Shown here piece by piece: positions 20,701-58,452 of a stretch of 64,000 bases of DNA. Each line of letters opens with the position of its first letter. The first letter of the stretch is position 1. Source of the DNA: Bolinopsis microptera (Eukaryota > Ctenophora > Tentaculata > Lobata > Bolinopsidae); contig NC_087083.1 in assembly GCF_026151205.1 (NCBI RefSeq), positions 11,592,944 to 11,656,943 of the forward strand, written 5' to 3'. Both the position numbers and the translations under genes were made by a program. The notes under the pieces are model-generated. The model worked only from the letters and a program-made list of their open reading frames with translations, did no database searches and had not been told where the DNA came from.

Positions 20701-23700
20701 CCCGGACAGTGCGGATCTCAAGTTAACTCAGATAACAGATGATAACGGAGTATACAGTATCGGTCCTCTTCACAATAACCTACATTACCAGGTCTACCAG
20801 GATAACATGTTATCTTAGTTCAAACCCAAGATAGCATCATTATTATAATTCGGAAGTTTCTGTACGTACAATGTACGTACGACCGCCCACGTTTGATTAG
20901 GTAAAAATCAAAAGGTTGCATAGTTATGCGTGGTAGTAAGTCATACCAGAAAGAATCATTTCAATTGGGCACTCAGTGACTGAGCTATTAAGGCCAACGT
21001 ATGGGTACTGACTTTTGCCCCCCCCCCCCCCCCCCCCTGTACTTTGCTTTAAGACTTCTCAGTTCTCAAACAGCCCCCTCCTCAAGCTACCCCTAAACAT
21101 TATCTGTTTTGAAGGTGTCTGCAGAGAAACAGTTCTCAAACAGCCCCCTCCTCAAGCTACCCCTAAACATTATCTGTTTTGAAGGTGTCTGCAGAGAAAC
21201 AGTTCTCAAACTCTCAAACAGCCCCCTCCTCAAGCTACCCCTAAACATTATCTGTTTTGAAGGTGTCTGCAGAGAAACAGTTCTCAAACAGCCCCCTCCT
21301 CAAGCTACCCCTAAACATTATCTGTTTTGAAGGTGTCTGCAGAGAAACAGTTCTCAAACAGCCCTCTCCTCAAGCTACCCCTAAACATTATCTGTTTTGA
21401 AGGTGTCTGCAGAGAAACAGGACTACGACATTATCAAGAGCGAGGAAGGAGGACATGACTTTGTTGCTATAAAACTTAGCAAACTTACTGTATCTATTAA
21501 CATAGGTCAGATATCTTTTATTTTTCATTAATTTCAGTGTACCTCAAAACGCGGAATTTTGTTTTACAAGGAAATTTCTGCTACATTATTTCTGAATATT
21601 ACTATATAAATAAGAATTGTTGCAATTGTTTTTCAAATGTATGGTGCTAACAAATATAAAATTAACGAGTACACGCACAGGTGAGGGAGTGCTGCCAGGG
21701 GTGCTAGTGTCAGTGTCCAGTACTAAGGGCTACCGTAACAATGTTCTGCTGGAGGATGCACCTCTTGTTCTCTCTGGACTCGTTCCTGGCGACTACTATA
21801 TAAGGTATTAATATTCTAATTACAATATACCTGACTACTATATAAGGTATTAATATTCTAATTACAATATCAATCAAAAGAAGTTATGCACGAAATGAGA
21901 TGTTTAACTGTATTTCATAGTAGATGGCTGAAACTATTTGTGAGGCCTCTTCAAGGTCTGTAGAACCAAGACAAATTCTGAGCCCAAATATTCAGACTGT
22001 AGAAATAGCCTTTTTGGTCACGCCCATTTGTGTTATATTCCAAATAGTTACCTTAGCTTCTAAACATCGTAGAGATTTTTAGATAGGCTCAAATCAACCG
22101 CAATGGCCACATTTATCTACAACTTATAAAGCAATATATGCCAAAAAAGACTAATTTTGGAGTTATTAATTTAAAAATTGAATTAATTATTATATACACA
22201 AATCAAGCGTTACATTTCAGCCATACAAAATTACAATGACATTATTTTGATATATTATTACTAATGGAAAAATGGTAAAAGCGCCTAGAATGCGCTTATA
22301 AGCTGATCATAATCGTTCTCAGCGATTCCAACGCGACTTTCAAGTAGGATTGGCGATTATAAGTGGTGGAAAAGCGGTCGGCCAGATAAGCGATTCGTAG
22401 TCTTTTTATCGAACCATTTATAAGCGATTTTAAGCGCTTATAAGTTGGTTACAATTTAGCAGTTTGTAAATCACTAAAAAAGCGCTAAAAATCCATTTTT
22501 CAATTTTTGGCATTTTAACGACTCACAAACTTAGATTAAGGAAATTTAAGTTTGACTTATATCTATATTTTCTGAAATTTGTGTGCAATTCTGACAGGAA
22601 TTACGTGAGTTATTCAAGGGTTGCGTGTGGACTGTGGGTAGTTACTTCTGGGCCACCCTGTATCGCTAAAAAACGATTATAAGCGGTGTTTTTTTTTAAG
22701 CGCTTAATAAGCAGATAAGCGATTATCAGTGCAGATCAGAAAATTTCATTTGTGGAAACCTGCCGAAAAATTCTCGTGATACTCAACACTACCAGGCTGC
22801 AGCTGGAGTGAGAAACATAATGTAAAACATCTGTACAATTTATTTTGGCTGAACCAAAAGACTGCGGTTAGACCATAATTACATTGGTGCTGACCCTACC
22901 TAAAATACAGAATTTAAATCTTTAATAACTGATCAAGAGACGAAATTACAATTTATACGATACCTTCTCTACTGGTGATGTACTACTGGTAATGTACTAC
23001 TGGTGATGTACTACTGGTGATGTACTACTGGTGATGTACTACTGGTAATGTACTACTGGTGATGTACTACTGGTAATGTACTACTGGTGATGTACTACTG
23101 GTGATGTACTACTGGTAATGTATTACTGGTGATGTACTACTGGTGATGTACTACTGGTAATGTACTACTGGTAATGTACTACTGGTAATGTACTACTGGT
23201 AATGTACTACTGGTGATGTACTACTGGTGATGTACTACTGGTGATGTACTACTGGTGATGTACTACTGGTGATGTACTACTGGTGATGTACTACTGGTAA
23301 TGTACTACTGGTGATGTACTACTGGTGATGTACTACTGGTGATGTACTACTGGTGATGTACTACTGGTGATGTACTACTGGTGATGTACTACTGGTAATG
23401 TACTACTGGTGATGTACTACTGGTGATGTACTACTGGTGATGTACTACTGGTGATGTACTACTGGTGATGTACTACTGGTGATGTACTACTGGTGATGTA
23501 CTACTGGTGATGTACTACTGGTGATGTACTACTGGTAATGTATTACTGGTGATGTACTACTGCACTGGTAATGTACTACTGGTGATGTACTACTGGTAAT
23601 GTACTACTGGTAATGTACTACTGGTGATGTACTACTGGTGATGTACTACTGGTGATGTACTACTGGTGATGTACTACTGGTGATGTACTACTGGTAATGT

Positions 23701-26700
23701 ACTACTGGTAATGTAGTATGTACTACTATACTGGTAATGTACTACTGGTGATGTACTACTGGTGATGTACTACTGGTAATGTACTACTGGTAATGTACTA
23801 CTGGTAATGTACTACTGGTGATGTACTACTGGTGATGTACTACTGACTTTAGCGATGAACATAAATTTAAACTTCTTCAGACCTATAATGAAAGAATACC
23901 AGTTCACGCCAAGCTCCAAGATGTTGACTATAACTGAGGGTCTGGAAGTAGATGTGAAACTTGTAGCCCGCCGTGTCGCCTTCAGGTAAACTAACATTGT
24001 ATCCCACATCCAGAAACATAGCAGATTGGCAGATAATGTGCGAGGAAATTTTCTGGGTGAAGAGGAAATTTTCTTTTTTTTAAATTCCTTGTCGTATTCC
24101 TTGTATTCCTTGTATTCCTTGTATATAGTAAGATTTTTTAAAGTTTGATGAATTCAACATAACTGAATTAGGATTAGTAGGGTAAGATATAACTGACTAC
24201 TATACCACAAACCAATACCCGTATACCCCCAGCTGTTATGGTAAGATATAACTGACTACTATACCACAAACCAATACCCGTATACCCCCAGCTGTTATGG
24301 TAAGATATAACTGACTACTATACCACAAACCAATACCCGTATACCCCCAGCTGTTATGGTAAGATAACGACCCTGAACGGGACCCCCCAATCCGGAGTGG
24401 TTATTGAAGCAGCTGGTGCTGGTGACTGTGCTCTTATTGAAGAAGGAGTGTCTGGTTTGTTATTTCGTTAAATAACTCATTTCAATACTTTCAACCAATA
24501 TTCCAATCAAATGTCGGATAACCCTATAAACACGTTTCCTTTACAAGGTAGACCAAGGTATTCAACCAAATCTACAACTTAACTTATCGCCAGAGGATAT
24601 TCTAAGCATCCAATTTTGTAATAGCTTAGTTAGAAGCCAAAGATCATTTGCCCATATTTGAGCACATCCATCAAATTGAAAATGTAATTGCGAAAATCGC
24701 GAACGGAGATATGGACTTTTGTTTATTTTAGGTGGTTTATGGTCTTAGTTTCCACATTTTAATAGATAATTATCTATAGATCACAGAGGATAATAATATT
24801 TTGTTCAGACTTACCTTTGAATTAAAGTGTCACGTCTAGAGTCCGGACCCCACCTGAAGATTATTTACTATTTACCCTTACTTTAGGAGTAGAAGGAGAG
24901 TATCGTATCAGAGGACTTCCGCCCAACTGTCCTATAACAATATCAGTGAGAAGTGATAAATCTACTGATGTTAGACGTGCCTCTCCTAAAACTCGTCTTA
25001 TACAGGTACGTAATATATTTTTAACTAATTACAACACTACAAATCTATTACATTTATTGAGAATTATGTAATGTGATGGAAGTATTTTAAGCGGGCATAT
25101 CCTGTCCAAACCCAGGATACATGAAATAAAGAATTTGGTTTAACTTGTTTGTATGAAAAGCATCAATATACTACTACTTACATTGATACAACCTATTGGT
25201 GAAAAAGGACGAAACTGTTAGCACCATTTGTGATCAATCTTAACTATTTGATCCAATTTATTTTGATCGTCTAGCCTTGTATTGAAATCTAAACAGTCAT
25301 GCACTATTAATAATGTTTATAATAAGGTCGACTCTGAACATCATTCGATAGAGTCAGCACTGCCGACTCAGCAGGTACCTTCATTTCCTCACTCGTTTGG
25401 AAAGTGTAAGTCTTTGCGAGTGATGCTCCCATGTTGTCACGGTGCATAATAATCTACCAGTGAAGCGGTATTAACACTTAATTCCTTATTCAGGTTGGAG
25501 AATCAGATACTGAAAATGTTAACTACATAATATTCCACCAACCCACAACATTTGATATCACCGGTTACATCGACATTGCCGATGAGTACATCTTGACCAC
25601 TAAGGTTTGTGTTTCAAGGTCTGGTTTCGAATTTACCAGCTTTTATTTGAATTGTGTTCCTTTTAATTTAAATCATGAATTATAGTACGTTCAGGGCCCG
25701 AGGCTTTAAAAGTGTAATTACAAGTTTCCGTGTGGGAACTTGTTAGTCACATTTTAAAAGTTAGTTTATGGAGAGCGTGTTTCACTTTTTCCTTAACAAT
25801 CAAACTTTTCAGTCCTTGATTGTGCGCGTTAATGCGCGCGATTTTACCGCTCGAGCGTAGTGCAAATTAACTGGTTTGTACACTTAGCACCGTACGACAA
25901 TTTAAGAAACTCTGAAAGACCTTAATCTAAATCTATTCCCGTAGGTTGTACTGATTGACGAATCACGTGAACAAGGCAGGAAGGTTCATAGCTCACCATT
26001 GGATCAAAGTAGGCTGTTCATCTTCCCGGAAATGGACCTCTCACATTCCTTCACCGTGAAACTGGAGTCTTCCTTATCACCTTCCATGTATAATGTACGA
26101 CATCATAGTTTACTAAACTTATTTAGTATTGCATGGTAGAGGCGGCTCGTTGGGGCACACGCAATTAATTTATTTATAATTTTAAAACCACGCATTTGCA
26201 TCTGCACGCCGGTAAATGGGGCTAATTAACTCTGCAAGCTATGTAAAAAGGGTCAAGGGTAAACCCTTCTCTAATAAGATAGAGCAACATATTTAGTAAA
26301 TACGAATAATTGACTTGTTTAAAATGGAATCTAGGGTTTTACAGATCTCAGAAAACGAGGTGAACTAAATCAACATTGATAGGGATGCCATGTTAGGTCT
26401 CTAATAAAGCCACCATGGACTGTGTTGATTCTTTTAAAGCTTACTATTTACCATGACTATGTTTTCAGTTCAAGATACCTGATGTTAAACTGAAGTCTGA
26501 AGGACCTTACCAACATACTGACATAGCTTTTAACCCCATTAGAAAAAGTGTGCCTCAGGAACAAGGTTTGGCCATTTTTATTGTTGCTACTAAGTCCGAT
26601 CTACACCACATATCCTTCTCCACATATCCCTGTACACCGTGGGAGAATTTCCAAGATCTAGCAGAGTACGGCATCCCCGTCATGTACGAGAAGACAATGG

Positions 26701-39000: not shown

Positions 39001-42000
39001 TATATATATATTTCGCAGTGGAGTTCCCCTGAAGACACCCTGAAAATGTTGAAATTTGATAAAATGTGGCTAATGAGTAATTATTCAATAAATACAGCGC
39101 GGACACAATAATTCGAAGAAAACAAACTTTTCGAGGAAAACTTTCAACGAACTCAAACTTAAGGGGCCATCTACTTAATAGGACGTCCGGCATAGAGGGT
39201 GGGGGTCGTTAAAATGTTGTGAAAAATTAAATTGCTACCAACTTTTGAGCTTATGTTACTCATGACATAATTTATGTTCTATAACATGGTTTCTTTTCAG
39301 TGCCGACAGCCGCTGAAGACGACAGAGAACACGGTGCCTCCTGTAACGGGAAAAAGAAGAAAGGTAACGAAGCAGTCCAGCACGCCCCGCAGTGAGAACT
39401 TCAGCAAACCCAGAAGTGCTCACGAAAGTGGGGACCTGCCCATGGAGCTGAAGAAAATAACAAACAGTAATGTTAATACCAGGTGAGGATACTGGCTGCG
39501 TACTTACTTTGGTTACTTTGGTTGTGTTTATCCTCGTAGCAGGAAGGCTCATCAGATTTCTGACCACCTCGATGGCGAGTAGTCTACCAGAGAATTAGAC
39601 CAGCTGCAGCTATAACCGGAAGTCGGAGGGTTGTCCGGTATCAAAGCAATAAACTTGGACAAACTAACTTTAAACGACTCAAAAGTAGCTTCAGCTTTAA
39701 TACTATCAGGCACTTTGTTCCATAGTTTTGGTCCTCTTACAGCAAATGAGCTGTCATAGAGTGTCTGGTTGCTCGAGGAACTCAACCTAGACAGGGAAGG
39801 GATGATTGCTCGGGTACCATGTCTGGATGTTTTTGAGACCTAATATTGCTGCAATTGGGGACAACATTGTGAAGGATCTTCCACGTCATCAGAATGGTGT
39901 ACTGTTCCCTTCTGCGCTGCAGTGACATCAGCTTTAGATGTGAAAGCCTCTCCCAGATTGTCCGGGCAGATTGAACTATTAATAATATTCAACATTTAAA
40001 CTGATCCTGTTATTGAAGTTTCACTGTTACCTATTATACCCATATAACCATCCTAAGTAGAGGATAAAAAACAATAGTTTCATACTTGTGTACTATACAG
40101 TATACATGTTTACTATACTTGTGTACTATACATGTTTACTATACGTGTGTACTATACATGTGTATTATACTTTTTACTATACGTGTGTACTATGCATGTG
40201 TACTATACATTTCCACTATACGTGTGTACTATACATGTGTACTATACTTGTGTACTATACTTGTGTACTATACATGTGTAATATACTTGTGAACTATACT
40301 TGTGTACTATACAGTATACATGTTTACTATACTTGTGTACTATACATGTTTACTATACGTGTGTACTATACATGTGTACTATACTTTTTACTATACGTGT
40401 GTACTATACATGTGTACTATACAGTATACATGTTTACTATACTTGTGTACTATACATGTTTACTATACGTGTGTACTATACATGTGTACTATACTTTTTA
40501 CTATACGTGTGTACTATACATGTGTACTATACATTTCCACTATACGTGTGTACTATACATGTGTACTATACTTGTGTACTATACTTGTGTACTATACATG
40601 TGTACTATACTTGTGAACTATACTTAGCTTGTGTACTATACAGTATACATGTTTACTATACTTGTGTACTATACATGTTTACTATACTTGTGTACTATAC
40701 ATGTTTACTATACGTGTGTACTATACATGTGTACTATACTTTTTACTATACGTGTGTACTATACATGTGTACTATACATTTCCACTATACGTGTGTACTA
40801 TACATGTGTACTATACTTGTGTACTATACTTGTGTACTATACATGTGTACTATACTTGTGAACTATACTTGTGTACTATACATTTTTACTATACGTGTGT
40901 ACTATACTTGTGTACTATACTTGTGTACTATACTTGTGTACTATACATTTTTACTATACATGTGTACTATACTTGTGTACTATACATGTGTACTATACGT
41001 ATGTACTATACTTGTGTACTATACATGTGTACTATACATATGTACTATACTTGTGTAACTATACATGTGTACTATACTTGTGTACTATACATGTTTACTA
41101 TACGTGTTTACTATACATGTGTACTATACTTGTGAACTATACTTGTGTACTAAACATTTTTACTATACGTGTGTACTATACTTGTGTACTATACTTGTGT
41201 ACTATACTTGTGTACTATACATGTGTACTATACTTGTGTACTATACATGTGTACTATACGTGTGTACTATACTTGTGTACTATACATGTTTACTATATTT
41301 GTGTACTATACTTGTGTACTATACATGTTTACTATACTTGTGTACTATACATGTTTACTATACGTGTGTACTATACATGTGTACTATACTTTTTACTATA
41401 CGTGTGTACTATACATGTGTACTATACATTTCCACTATACGTGTGTACTATACATGTGTACTATACTTGTGTACTATACTTGTGTACTATACATGTGTAC
41501 TATACTTGTGAACTATACTTGTGTACTATACATTTTTACTATACGTGTGTACTATACTTGTGTACTATACTTGTGTACTATACTTGTGTACTATACATTT
41601 TTACTATACATGTGTACTATACTTGTGTAGTATACATGTGTACTATACGTGTGTACTATACTTGTGTACTATACATGTATACTATACATATGTACTATAC
41701 TTGTGTAACTATACATGTGTACTATACATGTGTACTATACGTGTGTACTATACATGTGTACTATACATGTGTACTATACGTGTGTACTATACGTGTGTAC
41801 TATACGTGTGTACTATACATGTGTACTATACATGTGTACTATACGTGTGTACTATACGTGTGTACTATACATGTGTACTATACATGTGTACTATACGTGT
41901 GTACTATACGTGTGTACTATACGTGTGTACTATACGTGTGTACTATACTTGTGTACTATACATTTTTACTATACATGTGTACTATACTTGTGTACTATAC

Positions 42001-45000
42001 ATGTGTACTATACGTGTGTACTATACTTGTGTACTATACATGTGTACTATACATATGTACTATACTTGTGTAACTATACATGTGTACTATACATGTTTAC
42101 TATACATGTGTACTATACGTGTGTACTATACATGTGTACTATACTTGTGTACTATACATGTGTACTATACATGTGTACTATACTTGTGTAATATACATGT
42201 TTACTATACTTGTGTACTATACATGTGTACTATACTTGTGTACTATACGTGTGTACTATACATGTGTACTATACATGTGTACTATACTTGTGTAATATAC
42301 TTGTGTACTATACATGTGTACTATACATGTGTACTATACATGTGTACTATACATGTGTACTATACATGTGTACTATACATGTGTACTATACGTGTGTACT
42401 ATACATGTGTACTATACATGTGTACTATACGTGTGTACTATACATGTGTACTATACATGTGTACTATACATGTGTACTATACTTGTGTAATATACTTGTG
42501 TACTATACGTGTGTACTATACATTTTACTATACGTGTGTACTATACATGTGTACTATACATTTTACTATACATTTTACTATACGTGTGTACTATACATGT
42601 GTACTATACATTTTACTATACATGTGTACTATACATGTGTACTATACGTGTGTACTATACATGTGTACTATACATGTGTACTATACGTGTGTACTATACA
42701 TGTGTATTATACAATATGTGGGTTAATAACATTACTCATCAGGAGCACTCCACCAACCGCCTCCTCCAAGCGCCTTCTCAACAACCAGCCTGAAAAGCGT
42801 TCCAGAAAAGAGCCAACGTTGAACGACTCAAAACCAGAGGTTGTCCAGATTCCAGATAAACTTACTGTTGGAAAAAGGAAAGGCAATATCACTTCAAAAG
42901 TTGTTAAGGTAGTCCCAGTCTTTAACAGCCTTAATATCAATGTTTAAAATTTTGATCGTTTTCATCAATTTTCGTGGCAGTAATGTTCAGAAACTTTCAC
43001 ATATTACGTTAGCGGCACAGGGAGGAAAGAGTTATGTAACAAGAAATGCGGCCGCTTTTCTTTTGTGGATGGCCGCTCAATTTCCCGATCTGTGATGGCG
43101 TATTTTATCATATTCCGTACAACCTGGGGATCCCAGGCTTTACTATTTATACTTTATAAGCATGCAAATACGGCGGAGTGATAGGCCGAGCGCCGCCCAG
43201 TTAATTCTATATTAAATCTGAAAATCGTGTACATTTCTATCATGTAACATGCACTAACCATATGTTTATTGTTTATGCAACCTGATATGACACGGATCTG
43301 ACCAAAATAGTAATACTAACTCGAAATAATATGCTATCAATAAGTGCCTAGTGGGATACCTACATGGTGAAATTAACGATTTACTTGATCGCCAATAATA
43401 ATTTAATTCAGAATATCTCGCAAAATAACTTTGCTGTGAGAAGATGAAGATCAGACCTCGTTATTTGTGCAGTTATATTAGGAACGTGGGCGACATACTC
43501 GCAAGCTACCGTATACGGAAAAAACTCGTTCGCTAACCCTCACACAGAAGTCATGGATCGGGAAAAAATGCTAACAGGGAGTCTCATTGGCACTGTTACT
43601 AACATTTTCGTGAACCGCTGCTACAATTAAAATTCTGCTCAGATAAAAAAATCGGCAGCACCAAAAAAGTCTCAAGGACCGAAGAAAGCAGGTATTGAGG
43701 CCCCTCTACCAGTGAACTCCGTGATTGTGAACTCCACTCAGAAAACAAAGTAAGCAACTGGCAACATTATTATAATTGGAAGTGTTTATTTTCTTGTTAT
43801 TAACCCATTCAGTTCGTTTAGCTCTATCTTTTGAACCAAGTCATTTATTGAGTGACATCGTTCATTAAATCTGCTATACTTGGGGGGGGGGGGGGGGGGG
43901 GGCAACGCCCCAAAAGGCCCCACACATATCGAAAATCCGAAAAGGGCCCTAGATATCGGGGCCGATTGAATAAACCATTGATCCAACGGAATCTTTAGCC
44001 CACTCCCTAGACTAGTTACTAACCACCTGGCCACTCAGCCTTTAAATGTTAAAATTGTGTGTGACTAAAATTGTGCGTGACTAAAATTGTGCGTGACCAA
44101 AATTGGTAAAGAAAGTATGTGCTACTTTGTTATGTTCGAAAAAAGGAAGTAGATGACGTTCAGAATAGGAAGTTGTCTCATCCAATGTGTTTCTGAGAAA
44201 AGGGTTTAAGTTATTAACTTTCTTCCCAGGTACACTCTAGAAGAAGTATTAGGATCAGGTGGATTTGGTTATATCTACATAGTCACCGTCGAGGGCACAA
44301 AGCGCAAAGCTGTCATGAAAGTCGTAAGTTATAAATATAATTAAATGTAACAATATCTGGGGGGGGGGGGCCAACCATATTAAAGTTTTTTAAGTATATC
44401 CCCGGGTCAAAATCGGAAAAAATCCTACATTTTAATATACTTTAATATACCTACAATTAGAAGATTTATATTCTTCGTTAAGATTTACATGATGAACTAT
44501 ATTTTTCACTCAGATTCGCAAGATAAGCCTGTTTTAGGACTAGTACATGAATTTCCATCCAGATTGGTCAAAAATTGGCTGAGCTATGAGCTTTAAAAAA
44601 ATATGCCCATATTTGGGCATACGCTTTTGCCCAAATTCGCTTTTGCCCAAATTCGATAAAATTTCAATATTTTTTAATGAGACTAACTCTATGTGAAAGA
44701 TATAACTCAGTGTTTGTTGAATATAGTGGATATTAAGTAAAAAGACCTCCATGAACAAAATTGGGAAAATTGCACATAATATCTCGGTTCGGAATACTAG
44801 CCAAAATGGCTTCATTAAAATTGAAATATCTCCATCAGTTTTCAATATTTTTTCAAGAACTTTTTGGAATCGATTGAGAATTGCATTTCAAGCTTATTTT
44901 GGGCAACAATTTTTGATGTAGGCCTCCAAGGAGATAGGGATATATTAAAGTATATTGTAGGTATATTAAAGTATATTAAAGTATATCCCCGGGTCAAAAT

Positions 45001-48000
45001 CGGGAAAAATCCTACATTTTAATATACTTTAATATGGTTGCCCCCCCCCCCCCCCCCCCCCCCCAATATCTGGACAGGGACTCTTGACAAACTCCGCTCT
45101 ATTTAAAACGGTAGCTTGGCTTTTTCGATTTATCGAACTTTTAAGGGGGGTTCAGGCTAGGAAACATGAATTTGATCGTTTAGGTCTTGGGTTGTGGTTA
45201 GGGTTATGGATAGCTTCGGGGCTATGGTTAGGGTTGGGATTTCTTAGATCTTTTCTGAGATTCATAAATTTTATAGATTCTTTTCTGAGACTCAGATTTC
45301 TTAGATTTCGTTTTCAAAATCACCTGGACACCCTTTTGATAATGATTACTGAGTAGATTATACTAACCATTTGACATGAGTTCCACATACAGGAGCCTCA
45401 AGATAATGGACCCTTATTCAGCGAGATGCACTTCTATCAGCGTGCTGGAAAGAGTGACCAGCTCCAATCCTGGACCAAATCTAACAAACTCAAATACTTG
45501 GGGATACCCGAGATGTATGGGTTTGGGATACACCTTTACAACAAGATCAAATACAGGTAGGGAGTATCTGTGTGTTAAATGTTCATTAGTTTCAGAATAG
45601 GAAATATAAGCATAGCTTTCCTTAAGTTTTTTTTTTAAATGAGGTGTGCAGTCAGTGTAGCTTTCGTTGCAATTACCGAGCTCTCTTATCTTTTGTAACT
45701 TGCGATAAGTTTAGTTTACTGCTACCGCGTAGTTACTAGTTAGCCTTTGCGTGTGTACTTGTACATTCCTATACAAGTACACTATGGAGGATGATCTTAA
45801 TGTGACCCAATCTCTGGAGGAAATTCAAGCATTCGATTATGATGAACTGGAAAATGTTGAGGGCTGTGTTACTAAGTGGTTCATTGCGTTGGAAAAGAAC
45901 TGAAAATCGAAAACGTCAACCATGATATTTATGAAGATATGTTTATAAAAGGACTCTGGCACTCTGGCTTGTGGAGGCAATAGACCTCGTTCGACGGCAG
46001 GAATGCCAGATCGCTAGCATGACGGAGAATGGAGATCATCCATTGCTTCAAGACGGAAGCGTTAGCAAACAAGGAAAAGGTGATCAGGCTGCAGGGCCAG
46101 CTGCTTGTGCAGAGGGACAAACAACTACAGTTGCTTAAGACGTCGGTTGAAGAGACAGTGCAAACAACGGTGGAGTCAGGGATTCAGAGCTACAGTGCAG
46201 CTGTACAACAGAACAGTGCAAGTGGTACGGTCTACAACAGTAACATTCTGAAGAAGGTGATGAAGAGTGTGGCTGCAGAGGAGGACAGGAGCAAGAACCT
46301 GATTGTGTTTGGGCTGAAAGAAGAGGAGAAAGAACAGCTTCCAGCGCTAGTAACCGCAGTTTTGGAGGAGATTAGAGAGAAACCTCATTTCGAAGCGACT
46401 AGAGTCGGCTAGAGTCGACCAGTCAAGATCACCGTCCCAAGCTCAACAACAGTTCATCAGATTCTAATGAAAACAGGGAGACTGAGGCTAGTTGAGACCC
46501 ACAAAGATGTATGGATCTGTCCAGATAGATCCAGCGAAGAACGAGCAACGAGGAAGTATCTGGTCACTGACCTGAAGAAGGAGAGGGCTGAACAGACTCA
46601 TACAGCCTCGTTTTTTATTGTTTCACACTTTTCATATTTTATAATTTTATTACTAGGTGGAGGTGATGTTATTGAGACTTTGGCCGGCCATAAAACTCGT
46701 GTTTTGAAAGTTTTGAAAGTTGTCCTCTGTACTTTTTTCACGCTTTTTAGCATTTATACATTTCGGCCCAATTTATATGTTTGTTCGATTTAATGTACAT
46801 TTGTATATTTGCTATTTTGTAAAAGTATCAAATCAGCATTCAGCATTTAATAAATTATTGATGATTTAAAGTATAAAGCTGCCAAAAAGAGGAAAAAATA
46901 AATGAGCAAAAAGAAAAGAGGAAAGAAGGACTAGAGAAAATAAAAGGGAGAAATTGCCAAACTTTTCTCAATTTACTTAGTTTATTCCACGGATTTTCTG
47001 ACCTCCCTTATTTCGAAAACGGTCGCAAAGGTATTTTAAGATATATCCATGTGAGGAATGACCATTGATTTGATCTCTTTCTAATTGGTATATGCCTTGG
47101 TCAGGTACTTGGTTATGCCGTTATTCGAAGGAGACCTATTAAAGAAGCACGAAGAACACAAGAAGAAATTCTCCATACAGACTGCCCTTATCCTCTGTAT
47201 TCGGTAAATGTTTGAACTTCTTAGCTTGTTTAATACAGGATGGCCCAGAAGTAACTGCCCACAGGCAACCCTTTAACTTTGACACGAATAACATGAGTTA
47301 TTAAAGTCAGAGGGGGGTAAAAATAAATTTTCCAGTTTTCACATATTATGTGTTAGAGCTGCTGGAAACGAACAAGGAAAAAAACCGGACTGAAACTTGA
47401 ATTTGTCAAAAATCACATTGTGTCATTTTGTTAACCTCATATTTCAAGAATAAAAGCAAAAATCAAGATTCTAAAACATAACGTTTTTGCGTGACACCCC
47501 AAAGAACACCCGTACCGAGTTTCAGCTCCTGGTTGTGGTCTTTTCCAAAAGTGAAGGTTAACCTTTTTTGAGTTTAAGTTTAAGTTTTACATGTAATTAC
47601 AGGTAAACCGCAATATTTGTTGCGCGATATCTCAAAAACGCAAGGTCAAATCTCAGTTCGGTTTTTTTCTTCTTTTTCGTTTCCAACAGCTCTAGCTCAT
47701 GTGTGAAAACTGGAAAAATGATTTTAACCCCCCCCCCCCCCTTCTGGCCTTAAAGGGTTGCGTGTGGCCCTGTTCGTCGTCCGCCCCGCGTTTTAGCATG
47801 TTTAACAAGACTAATATACTGGAGGGGGGTGTAGTATAGTCCCTCAGCATATTACAATGCATATTCCCTGCAGGATGGTAGAAGCACTGCAGTACATGCA
47901 CGAGGCTAGCTACGTGCACGCAGATATCAAGAGCGCTAATATTCTCCTCAGGAACGGCGGCAAAGAGGTACGATTATATTCTACTGCATTTATGTGCATC

Positions 48001-51000
48001 TTTTCTTGCGGTGTTTTAGCCGCCTAGCCGGTATCTTGCCCACATTTAATGCTGTTTTTTTTTTTAAATAATTCTAGAGCTTTTCTTTCCTTTTCTACGG
48101 TCTGAGGTGGTAATGCTAGCTAGACGGTCTGTGGTACTGCAGGGTCTTTAAAAACATCTCAAAGCCAAAGAGATACCAGTACCGCGACCGGTCGCTTTCT
48201 ACCAGGCAGCCAGTAACAATATACTTCTATTTACATATTCAATAGTTCACATATTCACTAGTTCACATTTTGATTTGGCATTTTCCTCTATTTGTTTTAG
48301 GTTTTCCTAGCTGATTTTGGATTAGCTCGCAAGTACGTTATGGAGGGAGTACACAAGGCTTATAAGGAAGAACCAGCTAAAGCTCACGATGGCACTAAGG
48401 AGTTCACCAGTATAGATGCCCACAAAGGTAACCTAACATTCCTACAGGAGTAACCTAACATTCCTGCAGGAGTAACCTAACATTCCTGCAGGAGTAACCT
48501 AACATTCCTGCAGGGGTTTACCTAACATTCCTGCAGGAGTAACCTAACATTCCTGCAGGAGTAACTTAACATTCCTGCAGGGGTAACCTAACATTCCTGC
48601 AGGGGTAATCTAAAATTCCTGCAGGAGTAACCTAACATTCCTGCAGGGGTAACCTAAGATTCCTGCAGGGGTAACCTAACATTCCTGCAGGGGTAACCTA
48701 ACATTCCTGCAGGGGTAACCTAACATTCCTGCAGGAGTAACCTAACATTCCTGCAGGAGTAACCTAACATTCCTGCAGGAGTAACCTAACATTCCTGCAG
48801 GAGTAACCTAACATTCCTGCAGGGGTAACCTAACATTCCTGCAGGAGTAACCTAACATTCCTGCAGTAGTAACCTAACATTCCTGCAGGGGTAACCTAAC
48901 ATTCCTGCAGGAGTAACCTAACATTCCTGCAGGAGTAACCTAACATTCCTGCAGGGGTAACCTAACATTCCTGCAGGAGTAACCTAACATTCCTGCAGGA
49001 GTAACCTAACATTCCTGCAGGAGTAACCTAACATTCCTGCAGGGGTAACCTAACATTCCTGCAGGAGTAACCTAACATTCCTGCAGTAGTAACCTAACAT
49101 TCCTGCAGGAGTAACCTAACATTCCTGCAGGAGTAACCTAACATTCCTGCAGGAGTAACCTAACATTCCTGCAGGGGTAACCTAACATTCCTGCAGGGGT
49201 AACCTAACATTCCTGCAGGAGTAACCTAACATTCCTGCAGGAGTAACCTAACATTCCTGCAGGGGTAACCTAACATTCCTGCAGGGGTAATCTAAAATTC
49301 CTGCAGGAGTAACCTAACATTCCTGCAGAAGTAAACTAACATTCCTGCAGGGGTAACCTAACATTCCTGCAGGAGTAACCTAACATTCCTGCAGGGGTAA
49401 CCTAACATTCCTGCAGAAGTAAACTAACATTCCTGCAGGAGTAACCTAACATTCCTGCAGGGGTAACCTAACATTCCTGCAGGAGTAACCTAACATTCCT
49501 GCAGGGGTAACCTTACATTCCTGCAGGGGTAACCTAACATTCCTGCAGGGGTAACCTAACATTCCTGCAGGAATAACCTACAATTCCTGCAGGGGTAACC
49601 TAACATTCCTGTAGGGGTAACCTAACATTCCTGCAGGGGTAACCTAAGTCCTTACATTCCTGCAGGATTAACCTAACATTCCTGCAGGAGTAACCTAACA
49701 TTCCTGCAGGAGTAACCTAACATTCCTGCAGGAGTAACCTAACATTCCTGCAGGAGTAACCTAACATTCCTGCAGGGGTAACCTAACATTCCTGCAGGAG
49801 TAACCTAACATTCCTTCAGGGGTAACCTAACATTCCTGCAGGGGTAACCTAACATTCCTGCAGGAGTAACCTAACATTCCTGCAGGAGTAACCTAACATT
49901 CCTGCAGGGGTAACCTAACATTCCTGCAGGAGTAACCTAACATTCCTTCAGGGGTAACCTAACATTCCTGCAGGGGTAACCTAACATTCCTGCAGGGGTA
50001 ACCTAACATTCCTGCAGTAGTAACCTAACATTCCTGCAGTAGTAACCTAACATTCCTGCAGGGGTAACCTAACATTCCTGCAGAAGTAACCTAACATTCC
50101 TGCAGGGGTAACCTAACATTCCTGCAGGAGTAACCTAACATTCCTGCAGGAGTAACCTAACATTCCTGCAGGGGTAACCTAACATTACTGCAGGAGTAAC
50201 CTAACATTACTGCAGGAGTAACCTAACATTCCTGCAGGGGTAACCTAACATTCGTGCAGGAGTAACCTAACATTCCTGCAGGAGTAACCTAACATTACTG
50301 CAGGAGTAACCTAACATTCCTGCAGGAGTAACCTAACATTCCTGCAGGAGTAACCTAACATTCCTGCAGGAGTAACCTAACATTCCTGCAGAAGTAACCT
50401 AACATTACTGCAGGAGTAACCTAACATTCCTGCAGGAGTAACCTAACATTCCTGCAGGAGTAACCTAACATTCCTGCAGGAGTAACCTAACATTCCTGCA
50501 GAAGTAACCTAACATTCCTGCAGGAGTAACCTAACATTCCTGCAGGAGTACCGCCTTCCAGACGAGGAGATATGCAGATACTAGGCTACTGCTGTATTAA
50601 CTGGTTGGGGGGGTCATTACCTTGGTATTCCTGGGATAATTGTAACAACATCCGCTCTGAGAAGATTAAGTAAGTTGTTGAGATGGTTCTCAGTTTGGAC
50701 ATTTTGACTTTGTATTCGAACAAAAGCTAATTAAATGACTTAGTTATACAGTAAAACTCCGGGGTTTTACTGTAGTTAGATTTCTGTTATAGTTAGATTA
50801 GTTATTACTTATTATAGTTATGTTTCTGTTCAATAAATTTATGAGAAAAGTTTGCTTTTTAAATCATTTTCCGATAAATAACTTCTTTACAGGTATGAGA
50901 AGAAAAGCTCTAACTTGTTGGAGTTCAGTTTGGGTCTAGCTAACTTATCTTCCAAACCTTGGAAGGGTAAGTTAGGCTCTCATTTCTTATTTCGCATCGG

Positions 51001-51982
51001 GCATTTTCTTAAAACCTTTTTACTACAATTTAACTGATTTTGCAACGGTTTATACTATACGGGGAACATGCCCAAAAGATGGCGGTTAAAATGGGGAGGT
51101 GAGCCGAATTAAAGGTAGTGGGGAGCTCAATATGGGTTTATAGTGTCCCCCCCCCCCCCCAGGCACGTAGCCAGGGGGGGGGGCTAGGGGGGCGGCAGCC
51201 CCCCCCGGAAAAAATCGAACCCCAGAAAAAAGATAAGCCCCCTAGTCGCCTGGTAACTGGGCTGTGTTTATGACTGCAGTCAGTCAAAGATTTGAACTGT
51301 GGATTAGTAAATATATGTCATTAAATCCAAGCAAACATTCTAGAAGACTTCTATAATTATAGTCAATAGTGTCCCCTAGACCGTAGGAAATGTAAAAATC
51401 TTAAGACGATGAGGCCTGAGTAAGTCGTAAATTCTGATTGGAGAATGCAGATTGCTGTTGTGAAGTTACCAAATTTACGTGAGTACTTGATTCTTTTCAA
51501 TCCCAGTTTATTGCTGTCCTACAAATTTCTTTAATGCCAAATGTCGTCTAAAACACCCTGTTTCGCAAAAAATTTCCGGGGGGCTGCGCCCCCCTAGCCC
51601 CCGCCAAGGGGCTCCGCCCCTGGACCCCGCTGGGGGCTGCGCCCCCAGACCCCTGCCACAGCTTGCTCGCTTCGCTCGCTGCGCAGCTTGATTGGACGCG
51701 TCGGCTCGCTTCGCTCGCCGACAGCCCCCTTCAAAGAAAAATCCTGGCTACGTCCCTGCCCCCCCCCCCCTGGTTTCTGTCATCTAATTGTTAAACTATT
51801 CCCCATTAGATGGGGCTGATGAATGAATAAATTTGACGATATCCCCCATTTCAGCTATTAAGAACTTCTTGACGAACGTGTTTTCCCTGGGTTACGAGGA
51901 CAAACCCAGCTACTCCACCATTTCCTCTTATCTCAAGTCCGGCCTCACTACAACAGACACTGGGTATATGGTATGGTCGTGA
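29820..51982 (+). CDS. VRK1: VRK-family Ser/Thr kinase with a long basic N-terminus, 15 coding exons
   Basis: Nuclear kinase of the casein-kinase-1-related VRK group; relatives phosphorylate BAF/BANF1 and histones. Coding exons: 29820-29891 (or duplicate 31717-31788), 32464-32635, 33170-33251, 34438-34570, 39301-39482, 42743-42908, 43643-43749, 44230-44323, 45393-45556, 47105-47203, 47874-47967, 48301-48427, 50546-50669, 50893-50966, 51855-51982. All phases agree; 605 residues. Residues 1 to about 303 are Lys/Arg/Ser/Pro-rich and look disordered, with several nuclear-signal-like clusters (KRKK, KKRKPP, GKRRKV). The kinase domain follows: glycine loop GSGGFG (313-318), lysine in VMKV, VRK signature [18 protein letters not shown], catalytic HADIKSAN (D441), ADFGLA (D460) and [15 protein letters not shown]. 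It appears catalytically competent. Unlike VRK1 the extension is N-terminal and the C-terminus stops soon after the kinase lobe. A reverse-strand transporter gene lies inside intron 34571-39300. Confidence 0.93.
30744..30775 (+). CDS. Duplicate of the last NOMO exon
   Basis: Preceded by the same acceptor (cactttttcag) and encoding the same basic C-terminus (IRRGKSRKR), but ending in tag instead of taa. Splicing from 28153 to here would give the same protein with a different 3'UTR. Whether it is used is unknown. Confidence 0.55.
31717..31788 (+). CDS. Duplicate of the first VRK exon
   Basis: Encodes the same 24 residues ([17 protein letters not shown]...) as 29820-29891, with the same upstream acceptor and the same donor (cag then gtttgtc). 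It is nearer to exon 2 and may be the main start. Confidence 0.75.
33500..33678 (+). CDS. Candidate alternative VRK exon
   Basis: An open stretch bounded by an acceptor (ttttttatattgtag) and a donor (gagcagcag then gtaatc). Its phase would link VRK exon 2 directly to exon 5 in frame, replacing exons 3 and 4. It reads [15 protein letters not shown] and so on. I recognise no domain; it may be a chance open frame. Confidence 0.25.
33949..33971. repeat. Orphan C-run
   Basis: A homopolymer after gtagttgga, resembling the right end of FB2 (cttgga plus C run), but no matching left end was found nearby. Similar lone runs occur at about 3065, 21018, 43881 and 47729. Confidence 0.5.
35301..35795 (-). 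mobile_element. Non-coding repeat element, inverted relative to 43043-43567
   Basis: About 0.5 kb matching 43043-43567 in opposite orientation. Shared words include gcggccatccacaaaagaaa, ggatcgggaaa and gcggccgcat. A related block (cctgtcattccgccaaat) is at about 52835. No coding capacity; probably a MITE or SINE-like element. Confidence 0.7.
36270..38434 (-). CDS. Major facilitator superfamily transporter nested in a VRK intron
   Basis: Membrane transporter of unknown substrate. Exons on the - strand in coding order: 38434-38350, 38248-38105, 37909-37647, 37163-36270. They give 461 residues with matching phases. The first exon encodes a soluble N-terminus, the second starts with TNKLRSW and a membrane helix ([18 protein letters not shown]), and the last two hold about ten further hydrophobic helices with a charged central loop ([13 protein letters not shown]). 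Length and 11-12 helix layout fit the MFS. I cannot name the subfamily; an SLC18B1-like or orphan MFS protein is possible. The ATG is 12 nt after an acceptor (aaaaatttttcag), and a four-codon upstream frame overlaps the start (atgtcggcatga). The whole gene lies inside VRK intron 34571-39300, on the opposite strand. Confidence 0.85.
39552..39960 (-). pseudogene. LINE C-terminal fragment
   Basis: The - strand encodes [19 protein letters not shown], the conserved tail of CR1/L2-type LINE ORF2 proteins (compare YWNSLPPLVKASESV in the element at 55820-57386). Only the end of the ORF remains, in the VRK intron after exon 5. Confidence 0.75.
40084..42713 (+). repeat. 13-bp minisatellite, about 200 copies
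   Basis: Units follow ntgtgtactatac, where n is a, c, g or t by context, with shortened variants (actatacttttt, acatttccac). Longer blocks recur (for example 40085-40300 against 40300-40500, and 40870-41160 against 41520-41640), so the array grew by duplicating multi-unit segments. The open frames of up to 400 codons are a by-product of a unit without stops. It fills most of the VRK intron 39483-42742. Confidence 0.95.
43043..43567 (+). mobile_element. Non-coding repeat element, partner of 35301-35795
   Basis: Inverted relative to the first copy and similar over about 500 bp, from gcggccgcttttcttttgtg to tcatggatcgggaaaaaa. It lies in the VRK intron before exon 43643-43749. Confidence 0.7.
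44360..45064. mobile_element. Foldback element FB3 with G-run/C-run tips and 8-bp target duplication
   Basis: Starts with a G run plus ccaaccatattaaag and ends ctttaatatggttg plus a C run. The flanks share aatatctg (44352-44359 and 45065-45072). Subterminal zones repeat tatattaaag. A block with tatccccgggtcaaaatcgg occurs near both ends in the same orientation. No transposase; about 705 bp, in the VRK intron after the glycine-loop exon. Confidence 0.85.
45784..46620 (+). pseudogene. LINE ORF1 remnant in a VRK intron
   Basis: Starts [19 protein letters not shown], is broken by stops and frame changes, then continues as a coiled-coil-like stretch and [19 protein letters not shown] second open piece has [20 protein letters not shown]. 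This layout matches the ORF1 (RNA-binding) protein of CR1/L2-like LINEs. It is disrupted, so non-functional. Confidence 0.65.
47236..47772. mobile_element. Long imperfect foldback transposon
   Basis: Starts caggatggcccagaagtaac and ends gggttgcgtgtggccctg. Inward, both arms keep similarity over about 150 bp (ccagttttcacat against atgtgtgaaaactgg). It is related to the element at 10820-11210, and a further fragment lies at about 35005-35110. Non-coding, in a VRK intron. Confidence 0.7.
48428..50545 (+). repeat. 22-bp splice-signal array forming a whole VRK intron
   Basis: About 96 copies of a 22-bp unit: gtaacctaacattcctgcag followed by gg or ga. Each unit has a donor-like gtaacc, a branch-like ctaac and an acceptor ttcctgcag. 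The VRK exon ending cacaaag at 48427 meets the first gtaacc exactly, and the next exon (gagtaccgcc, from 50546) follows the last ctgcag exactly. Variants include ctgcagtag, ctgcagaag and cattactgcag. The intron consists of essentially nothing else. Confidence 0.97.
51160..51758. mobile_element. hAT-like non-autonomous transposon inserted in a C run
   Basis: The left end (c)aggcacgtagccaggg and right end ccctggctacgtccctg are inverted repeats, typical of CAGGG-type hAT ends. Both sides are flanked by C runs, so an 8-bp target duplication of C would be invisible. The interior is GC-rich (gggggctgcgcccccc words) and non-coding. It lies in the last VRK intron. Confidence 0.7.
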
Positions 51983-54964: not shown

Positions 54965-55819
54965 ACATTAATTCCTTATTCTGATGTATGAGATCTCTAA
55001 TATACCCTGTTGATTTTTCATAACTCAGATAAATCAAAATTATTGGTATAACATATAACACTATAAATCTAGTACATTTATTGAGCGATGGAAATATTCA
55101 AAGCGGGTAATAGCCTGTCCAAACCCAGGCTACATAACATGAAGACTTTGTTGTAACTTGTATGAATAGCATTTATACAAATGAATTCAGCTCTTCTTTC
55201 ATCTCGCCACATGACCAAACCATCTGAGCCTAGTTCTACTGAGCTGATAGAATGCTCCAGAGGCCTTTTGAATACATGAGAGTTCTTTATCAGTTGATCC
55301 ATCCGTAATGATGATATAGCAAAGTAAAGTAAAGTAAAATTTAGGGCATCACATCATCTGATAAAGTTTAGTAAAGCCAAGTAAAATTTATGAAATCACA
55401 TCATCTCACATGTCTACAAAATATTATCGCACTATATTACAAAATATATAATAAATATTCCCCCATACCACCAACATCAATTTTTTATATAATACAGTTT
55501 ATCAAAACATTTAATTATCCTATTTATTTAACAACAGACCCTAATTATACCGTCGACAATTCATATGAAAAATTTTACACTGCAATCATAGTCGACGATA
55601 ACTAAGTAACTTCTAATTCTTTTAAATCTGAGGCATATATAATTGATGTATCGAAAAGATATTCCCTTTTTTAACACCTTACCATTCTGATTGATTTTGC
55701 ACATGACTGACATGTTTTAACTGGAGAAGGGGTTCCCACAGTGGTAGTTTTATAAACCACTTTTAATTTATTGACCTATTATACTTAGTGGAAGTTTTAT
55801 AGACCACATTTAATTGTGG

Positions 55820-57386
55820 TGTTCATCCTAGACTCCTGAGGTATTTAAGTGAGAACAGTTCCTTTGTGGATGCGGTTGTGTTGCTGTTTAGTGCCTGTGC
55901 TTCTGAGCAGTATATTCCTGAGGTATGGAAAACTGCCACTGTTGTGGCCTTGCACAAGAAGGGGTCAGTACATAGTCCTAATAATTACAGGCCTGTGTCA
56001 CTGACTTGTATACTATGCAAAGCCTATGAGAAGCTTCTTAGGGAGTATATTCTCGACGGTGTTGAACAGGTGCTTAGTAGCACACAGCACGGCTTCATGA
56101 AGGGTCGGTCATGCTTATCTAACCTATTGGAGTCTATTGACGCTGTCAATGACTTGCTGGCTGAAGGTGGCTGTGCTGATATATTATACTTTGATTTCTC
56201 TAAGGCCTTTGATAGCGTACCACACCACCGTTTATTAGTTAAATTAAGAAATGTTGGTGTTCCTGAGGAGATTATTGGTATTTTAGAAAACTTTTTAGTA
56301 GGGAGGTCTATGAAAGTTAAAGTAGGAGATGCATTTTCTGAGATTAAATATATACTTTCAGGAGTGCCCCAAGGCAGTGTTTTGGGACCATTGCTCTTTC
56401 TTTTATTTGTAAATGATCTTCCAGAAGGGATCAAAGCTATCATCAAACTTTTTGCTGATGATGTTAAAATGATTGTTAATCCTTTTATTAATCTAACAGC
56501 TGATTTGAAGTTGCTAGAACTTTGGGAGTCTCGTTGGTGTTTAAATTTTAATGTAGATAAGTGTATGGTCATGCAAATTGGTTCTTGTAATCCTAAGAAT
56601 CAGTACTTGTTTGGTGGTTTGCCTTTGAGATGTGTTGAAAGCGAGAAGGACCTTGGAGTGGTCTTTAACACCAGTTTCAACTTTGAGGATCATGTGAGAA
56701 AGTGCATTGCTAAAGCTAATGGTACCATTGCCTGGCTTACAAGAAATATTATATCGAGGGAAACAAGCGTTATGCTGGGCTTGTATAAGTCTTTAGTAAA
56801 GCCTCATATAGAGTATTGTTCACAGGCATGGGCTCCGATGGCTAGGCATGGAAACTGGTCACTGATTCTTGAATTGGAAGGTGTCCAGAGATCGTTCACC
56901 CGTATGATTGATGGATTGGGACTCATGACTTACAGAGAGAGACTGGATAAGCTGAACCTCACCACCCTGCTTGAACGCAGGGTTCGTGGAGATCTCATTG
57001 AGATGTTCAAGATCCAGGAAGGCTTTGTGGGTTATGGTTCCGATTTATTTGGTCGTTCTGGTAGGACTGTTGCTGCTAGATCAAAGACTCATAGATTCAC
57101 CACAAATGAGACTGATTTCTTTGCCCAAAGGGTCTTGCGCTATTGGAACAGTCTACCACCACTTGTGAAAGCTAGTGAGTCGGTTACTGGTTTCAAGAGG
57201 GGATTAGATGCCTTTCGGCTTCATGGATATCGAGCTAATAAGCTTGGTCATCACTGGAAACTTTCATATGATATATTTGATAGAATTGATGTTACTGTAG
57301 CTCACAGGAGTAATTATGTAAATTATATGAAAGATAATCCAATAATAGCTAAGAGGAAGAAGGTCAATTTAAGAGGCCTTACTTAG
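55820..57386 (+). mobile_element. 5'-truncated CR1-like LINE reverse transcriptase
   Basis: One long open frame; the ATG at 55866 gives 506 residues, but the frame extends upstream (GVHPRLLRYLSENSS, the usual domain entry), so the 5' part, including any endonuclease, is missing. Reverse transcriptase blocks from the ATG: NNYRPVSLTCILCK (39-52), YFDFSKAFDSVPH (108-120, catalytic Asp 110), SGVPQGSVLGPLLF (165-178) and FADD (196-199). It ends with the LINE C-terminal WNSLPPLV block. All catalytic aspartates are present and there are no internal stops, so insertion may be recent. Likely CR1/L2 clade. Confidence 0.9.
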
Positions 57387-58259: not shown

Positions 58260-58452
58260 GGGTCCGGGACTCTAGGGCGTAAGACTCTAGGGCGTGAGAC
58301 TTTAGGGCGGCGCCCTAACCCTAACCATCACCCTAACCCTAACCCTAACCCTTATCCTAACCCTAACCCAAACCCAAACCCTAACCCTAACCCTAACCCT
58401 AAGACCCTAGAGTCTTACGCCCTAGAGTCTTACGCCCTAGAGTCCGGACCCC
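58260..58452. mobile_element. Foldback element with a telomere-repeat core and 9-bp target duplication
   Basis: Arms gggtccgggactctagggcg (left) and the complement of ccctagagtccggacccc (right) carry repeated ctctagggcgtaaga words. The core is about 20 units of ccctaa and variants (cccaaa, ttatcc). acttcttgc flanks both sides (58251-58259 and 58453-58461). A loose right end (tctagagtccggaccccac) is also at about 24838. Confidence 0.85.

Follow-up and report, generated by a model that had tools for sequence, protein, structure and literature searches.

A VRK-type kinase intron of the ctenophore Bolinopsis microptera that consists wholly of 22-bp tandem units, probably through minisatellite takeover of an ordinary intron

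In a stretch of 64,000 nucleotides of the Bolinopsis microptera genome (NC_087083.1, positions 11,592,944 to 11,656,943 of the forward strand; hereafter the window), one intron of a gene for a VRK-type kinase is made from end to end of 96 copies of a 22-bp unit. In our opinion, this is probably the outcome of a minisatellite takeover of an ordinary VRK intron, which was seeded at the acceptor, is spliced in one step between the outermost sites and is tolerated by the gene. Positions of the features are collected in Table 1.

The array leaves no room for anything else in the intron. TRF reports it at 48428-50550 (period 22, 96.1 copies, 94% matches), and the fraction of 48428-50545 that it covers is 1.0, so that unique intron sequence is fully absent. 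Segmentation divides the array into 96 units, of which two deviate in length (23 and 29 nt), and the first unit carries CTACAG instead of CTGCAG. A preliminary description of this DNA had claimed that some 96 copies fill the intron and that they stand in register with the exon ends, and both statements hold. The 5' border is sharp, with exon and first GTAACC joined as cacaaag/gtaacc; at the 3' border the final ctgcag joins gagtacc, and the repeat extends 5 nt (GAGTA) into the exon. Among the restriction sites of the window, 78 of 79 SbfI sites (CCTGCAGG) fall within 48428-50547; such a cluster would distort SbfI-based RAD sequencing, and it also gives a simple restriction-ladder test.

Table 1. 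Positions in the window of the VRK exons, the array and its splice sites, and the arrays on splice junctions of the NOMO gene (a slash marks a splice border)
Feature	Position	Strand	Repeat	Basis
NOMO array at donor 14988/14989	14985-15119		9 bp x15	
NOMO array ending at acceptor 21420/21421, or within 8 bp	21060-21420		70 bp x5	
NOMO array at donor 21804/21805, 14 exon bases	21791-21870		42 bp x1.9	
NOMO array at acceptor 24350/24351, 16 exon bases	24181-24366		59 bp x3.2	
VRK exon	47874..47967	+		translation + VRK1 alignment
VRK exon 5' of array (VFLADFG...SIDAHK+G), ends AAAG/GT	48301..48427	+		VRK1 alignment
2118-nt intron, all tandem units GTAACCTAACATTCCTGCAG+GA/GG	48428..50545	+	22 bp x96	TRF, segmentation
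Real 5' splice site AAG/GTAACC	48428..48433	+		rank 1 of 101 array GTs
Last unit, real acceptor CATTCCTGCAG/GAG, with CTAAC as likely branch site	50526..50545	+		acceptor score
GAGTA, first exon bases continuing the unit, within TRF array	50546..50550	+		sequence, TRF
VRK exon 3' of array	50546..50669	+		VRK1 alignment
Following VRK exon, ends KPWK	50893..50966	+		VRK1 alignment
Last VRK coding exon, probable; predicted end	51855..51982	+		VRK1 alignment

The gene that carries the intron, on contig C12, was assigned by comparing its joined reading with solved structures. The query comprised the C-terminal part of the protein, catalytic-loop region included, and its best match is human VRK1 (E 4e-44), followed by VRK2 (2e-37), VRK3 (2e-29) and a CK1-like kinase (3e-20). 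In the spliced reading, the VRK1 alignment runs without a gap over the two exons on either side of the array (..ftsidahkg/vppsrrgd..), which indicates that these exons are real; the intron sits at a phase-1 site. Searches of the window for Rfam families and tRNAs found none. Elsewhere in the window there are about 200 copies of a 13-bp unit (TATACATGTGTAC) at 40101-42713, upstream of the VRK exons, about 15 CCCTAA units between inverted 15-bp minisatellites (GACTCTAGGGCGTAA and its reverse complement) at 58268-58444, and at 55803-57383 an open frame of 527 aa, which from its motif we take to resemble a reverse transcriptase.

How good the many potential splice sites are was judged with profiles of 64 introns from 13 dynein heavy-chain loci picked by Pfam match only; the 64 are those left of 82 candidates after removal of overlapping calls and of joined-peptide ratios <0.40. 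Array-bearing junctions in loci L014 (two), L012 and L017 (one each) stand outside the 64 and were read by eye. Junctions in this profile had been positioned with a generic splice score, in which G at -1 is an advantage. As a control for circularity, 56 unique junctions were placed by peptide alignment alone (122 exon-pair tries, two queries); G at donor -1 is found in 63/64 introns, and in 55/56 with peptide-only placement. With either profile the outermost donor comes first among the GTs of the array; with the 64 introns its score is 7.46 (41st percentile), and with the 56 junctions it stands at the 52nd percentile. The commonest internal contexts, GGA/GTAACC (48 times) and GGG/GTAACC (32 times), score -4.5 and 3.2, respectively; the common internal GTs are at or below the 2nd percentile of the 64 introns, and the outcome is equal with the 56 peptide-placed junctions. 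Predicted pairing with U1 is also strongest at the outermost donor (-6.5 kcal/mol, the lowest among the contexts listed), while U1 pairing alone discriminates the GGG-type sites less clearly (-6.2 vs -6.5 kcal/mol).

The acceptors present a different picture. The real one reaches the 98th percentile of the 64 introns (88th of the 56 peptide-placed), and in both profiles 76 internal AGs score as high or higher, 77 with the real one counted. The suggestion that each unit is a complete miniature intron does not survive this comparison: the unit holds a good acceptor, but its GT, with the common internal GTs at or below the 2nd percentile, is a poor donor. Likewise, where the spliceosome had been thought to face roughly 96 donors and 96 acceptors, the second half of that picture stands (there are 95 CAGs), and the first reduces to one good donor. 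The problem of splice-site choice lies on the acceptor side, not the donor side. The GT-AG ends themselves are within the range of this genome, as befits a major-type intron.

The reading frame points to the same outer pair. It had been proposed that this pair alone keeps the frame, and in the window copy of the gene both exons can be read through without a stop with exactly 1 of 7,996 GT-AG pairs, the outermost; in a second copy, described below, it is again the outermost, 1 of 2,798 pairs (>=40 nt apart). When the real donor is joined to the CAG acceptors, 94 of 95 produce a stop, which follows after three codons in 91 cases and after 9-16 in the remaining three. Splicing would have to join the outermost donor to the last acceptor because other choices break the protein; use of the last acceptor is thus deduced from the frame. 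Spillover to internal acceptors would probably give a truncated message, which we expect to decay. Definition of the downstream exon may assist the choice of the last acceptor, although the donor of that exon, TAA/GTAAGT, is weak (2nd percentile), which weakens exon definition as an aid to splicing. As to the branch site, CTRAY occurs 10 times at 5-19 nt from the intron end in the 64 introns, against about 3.5 expected, but it is also raised at 35-44 nt (7 vs about 2.3 expected), and for this reason the position of the branch site is uncertain.

Do the units show that every one of them is kept fit for splicing, as had also been suggested? The AG is retained in every unit. The GT is lost in 2 of 94 regular units, or in 4 of 96 when the neighbours of the two indels are also cut into 22-mers. 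The bases between units, that is between AG and GT, vary most (non-modal in 9/94 regular units at position 21 and in 35/94 at position 22), while at the core positions variation is seen in 0-4 of 94 regular units. A test for selection on each unit was rejected, since independent core changes are too few; the unit variation holds no evidence of selection on the array units, and with some units lacking a GT, selection for splicing competence in each unit is unsupported. Also rejected was a long higher-order repeat: the order of units contains no recurring block of 7-12 units that is built from three or more unit types.

A role for the array as a whole is another matter, and we consider it very unlikely. 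According to this explanation the acceptors compete, and the number of units sets the share of stop-containing, decayed transcripts and in this way tunes kinase output. It can be said in its favour that 76 internal AGs match or exceed the real acceptor, that the real donor with any of 94 internal CAGs leads to a stop, and that full units differ between the gene copies (96 vs 30). However, the units bear no sign of selection, and their fast turnover is compatible with neutrality. Put more specifically as a 3'-splice-site competition device, in which about 76 equal-or-better acceptors compete and unit number (96 vs 30) sets VRK output, the idea is in our judgement quite unlikely; if it were true, VRK output could shift quickly through slippage. 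We prefer to think that the array is tolerated and not selected. It is probably tolerated because the outer sites persist at any copy number.

The difference in unit number is known from the second VRK copy, which lies 3.5 Mb away at C12:15.119 Mb and has the identical array register and exon borders. Its array has 22 units, then an insert of 652 bp, then 8 full units; the insert is a dispersed repeat with at least 69 matches including itself (40 scored of 1,790 first-look candidates). The 13-bp array upstream of the VRK exons seemingly also has a shorter version there. The block around this copy (C12:15.09-15.14 Mb) aligns to about 33.5-60 kb of the window, with rearrangements, multi-kb insertions and an identity of about 68-99% in the longer aligned pieces; it lies near the contig end and would stem from segmental duplication or from misplacement of a haplotype. 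The mean distance between cores is 0.025 between the copies and 0.029 and 0.019 within them, and since the first value is intermediate to the other two, both copies have one consensus in common. On the other hand, GG-type units make up 35/96 in the window copy vs 4/30 in copy 2 (P 0.02), which suggests that the two arrays turn over separately.

Could the array be an artefact of assembly, or the gene a pseudogene? Copy 2 does lie close to the end of its contig, at 15.12 Mb out of 15.20 Mb, and a haplotype could have been misplaced there. But the copies share both borders and yet differ in the number and content of units, neither copy has a stop in the exons flanking the array, and between the upstream exons there are 2 differences in 127 bases. 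We find this explanation highly improbable.

The genome (the 264.65-Mb assembly, 232 contigs) was further searched with the 20-nt core. With <=1 mismatch, 120 matches are reported, all forward; as repeat counts may be lower bounds, this is to be read as at least 120. Counted locally, the window array has 91 core matches and the second one 29, and because these also add up to 120, none of the reported matches falls outside the two VRK arrays. When <=3 mismatches are allowed, 125 of 137 forward matches are inside the two arrays, and outside them there are 12 forward and 9 reverse matches, vs 2 and 3 for a control pattern. That a mobile satellite or introner-like element was inserted into the gene and then expanded is, on these results, barely credible. 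An introner can bring splice sites of its own, which was counted for this explanation, and introners have copies across unrelated introns; here, however, the 120 reported matches are confined to the two VRK copies, and the array unit runs on into the exon.

This continuation into the exon also bears on the origin of the array. The exon opens with the same five bases, GAGTA, that the unit carries, and we therefore think that the seed of the array probably spanned the acceptor; the probability of a chance match of exon GAGTA to the continuation of the unit is about 4^-5. We propose that a GT-AG intron of the usual kind underwent a tandem duplication over its acceptor, taking in some 17 bases of the intron and the first five of the exon (ACCTAACATTCCTGCAG/GAGTA), and that slippage or unequal exchange would then have multiplied this seed. 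What unique intron sequence was left probably disappeared when a deletion joined the GTAA of the 5' splice site to one within the array: the exon AAAG stands directly on GTAACC, with no unit remnant, as would be expected from a deletion at the shared GTAA. The result would be an intron whose body has been wholly replaced by a minisatellite, and which would most likely be spliced in one step from the outermost donor, the only good one, to the last acceptor. The donor-like GT of the unit may come from the start of the exon. The preliminary description had derived the array from the intron's own splice signals, which is right as far as the acceptor is concerned, since the unit holds it, but incomplete, as the unit also includes the exon start. 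One detail counts against the seed: the last AG is followed by GAGTACC (exon) and the other AGs usually by GAGTAACC or GGGTAACC, so that an extra A is required to pass from the exon GAGTACC to the unit GAGTAACC.

The same border can be read in another way, namely that the intron was born by amplification at an intronless site, where a short duplication in the exon turned into an intron as soon as it had gathered enough units with GT and AG. The absence of unique intron sequence, the exon sequence held by the unit and the GAGTA right after the last AG all agree with this. So does a VRK-like paralogue at C12:11734303-11734779, whose match to query residues 1-163 lies in a single open frame and which hence has no intron at this site. 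Yet the identity of this paralogue is no higher than 33%, and it could have arisen by retrocopying. Moreover, for most of the unit (CCTAACATTCCTGCAG) nothing similar can be seen in the exon ends on either side, and CCTAACATTCCTGCAG is a high-scoring acceptor (98th percentile of the 64, 88th of the 56), as a pre-existing acceptor would be. We regard birth by amplification as unlikely and continue to favour the overwriting of an existing intron. If overwriting is correct, the orthologous intron of related species should be ordinary, with a CTAACATTCCTGCAG/GAGTA-like acceptor.

Among known systems, the closest are the 'mirages' of amphioxus, minisatellite-like tandem duplications over exon-intron boundaries. 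The parts of the papers on which we draw name Adh3, the globins BflGb6 and BflGb9, and TnC as mirage genes, and similar repeats in PGBD5 (PMC3087553, PMC3902484). The units are 10-72 bp in Adh3 and 150-160 bp in BflGb6, which has 6 or 3 of them, and BflGb9 has a 157-bp duplicate; globin RT-PCR and Adh3 data suggest, according to the authors, that splicing is undisturbed (PMC3087553, PMC3902484). The likeness, as far as those parts go, consists in tandem units that duplicate a junction, in splice signals within the unit and in length differences, which are between haplotypes there and between copies here. The array at 48428-50550 starts at the donor and crosses 50545/50546 by 5 nt, and its length is unstable between gene copies (96 vs 22 + 8 full units). 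The differences are that the mirages are found in a lancelet and this array in a ctenophore, and that here the entire intron has given way to 96 short units, in each of which only two exon bases recur. The VRK array is thus of the mirage kind, in another phylum and with an unusually complete takeover. We do not claim that full replacement of an intron is unprecedented, and Adh3 was compared through the descriptions given in later papers. A limited literature search found no ctenophore precedent for such arrays.

Two other systems are similar in part. In Cryptococcus CNN00420, introns were gained through repeat expansion (PMC2395259); there, too, a local expansion of repeats alters intron content within a species. 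In the part of that report drawn on here, however, the repeats hold exon ends and a full-length intron (about 107 nt) and so add introns, whereas the VRK units join into one. The UBC gene has arrays of dual-specific splice sites (PMC10809524) and resembles the VRK intron as a tandem array with repeated splice signals. There, according to the portion used, AGGT motifs at the borders of ubiquitin monomers serve as donor or acceptor; the VRK array has AGGT 0 times in 48428-50547, and therefore no joined AG/GT of the dual-specific or recursive kind.

Arrays that straddle splice junctions are not rare in this genome. The NOMO gene of the window has four tandem arrays on its splice junctions (Table 1). 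Among the dynein loci, 15 of 64 introns hold an array, and one of these introns (L013, 4595-5361) is 88% array, with 12 copies of 65 bp and 53 exon bases at the donor end. At L017 9771-9880, a 55-bp duplication repeats the exon end, with AG/GT in each copy. A dynein heavy-chain intron at L012 2609-7025 (gene on the minus strand) holds about 230 copies of a 19-bp unit over 4.4 kb, and this array begins within about 4 bp of the edge of the exon block. Of all arrays in this analysis, the one in VRK is the most extreme, with complete replacement by 96 units.

A general attraction of tandem arrays to junctions was rejected for the 13 dynein loci, as contacts occur at about the random rate. Arrays that contain a called junction number 2/61 vs 5.4 expected (4.8 if exon overlap is held to <=80 bp), those that overlap an exon edge 5/66 vs 8.4 (5.2), and those that come within 15 bp of one 11/66 vs 10.8 (7.4); arrays wholly inside known exons number 0/66. 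Under the null with 80-bp overlap, arrays within 15 bp are in excess if their period is >=20 (8/29 vs 3.6, uncorrected P 0.016) or if they have >=3 copies (8/32 vs 3.7, uncorrected P 0.022), but under the unconstrained null these subsets are not (P 0.22 and 0.30, respectively). A null that forbids exon overlap is exceeded in every row (11/66 vs 1.8 within 15 bp). Given the subsets above the exon-constrained nulls, some attraction to junctions may exist. Since the contact rate is close to random, junctions seem to bear arrays about as introns do, provided that the outer sites survive.

The VRK intron offers a natural experiment on acceptor choice, with one donor and about 95 near-identical acceptors 22 nt apart, of which the last alone is productive. 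Because one genome contains two copies with different numbers of units, 'first AG wins' can be tested directly against exon definition. The intron further suggests that junction-spanning arrays, known in lancelets, exist elsewhere, and at an approximately neutral rate in an array-rich genome.
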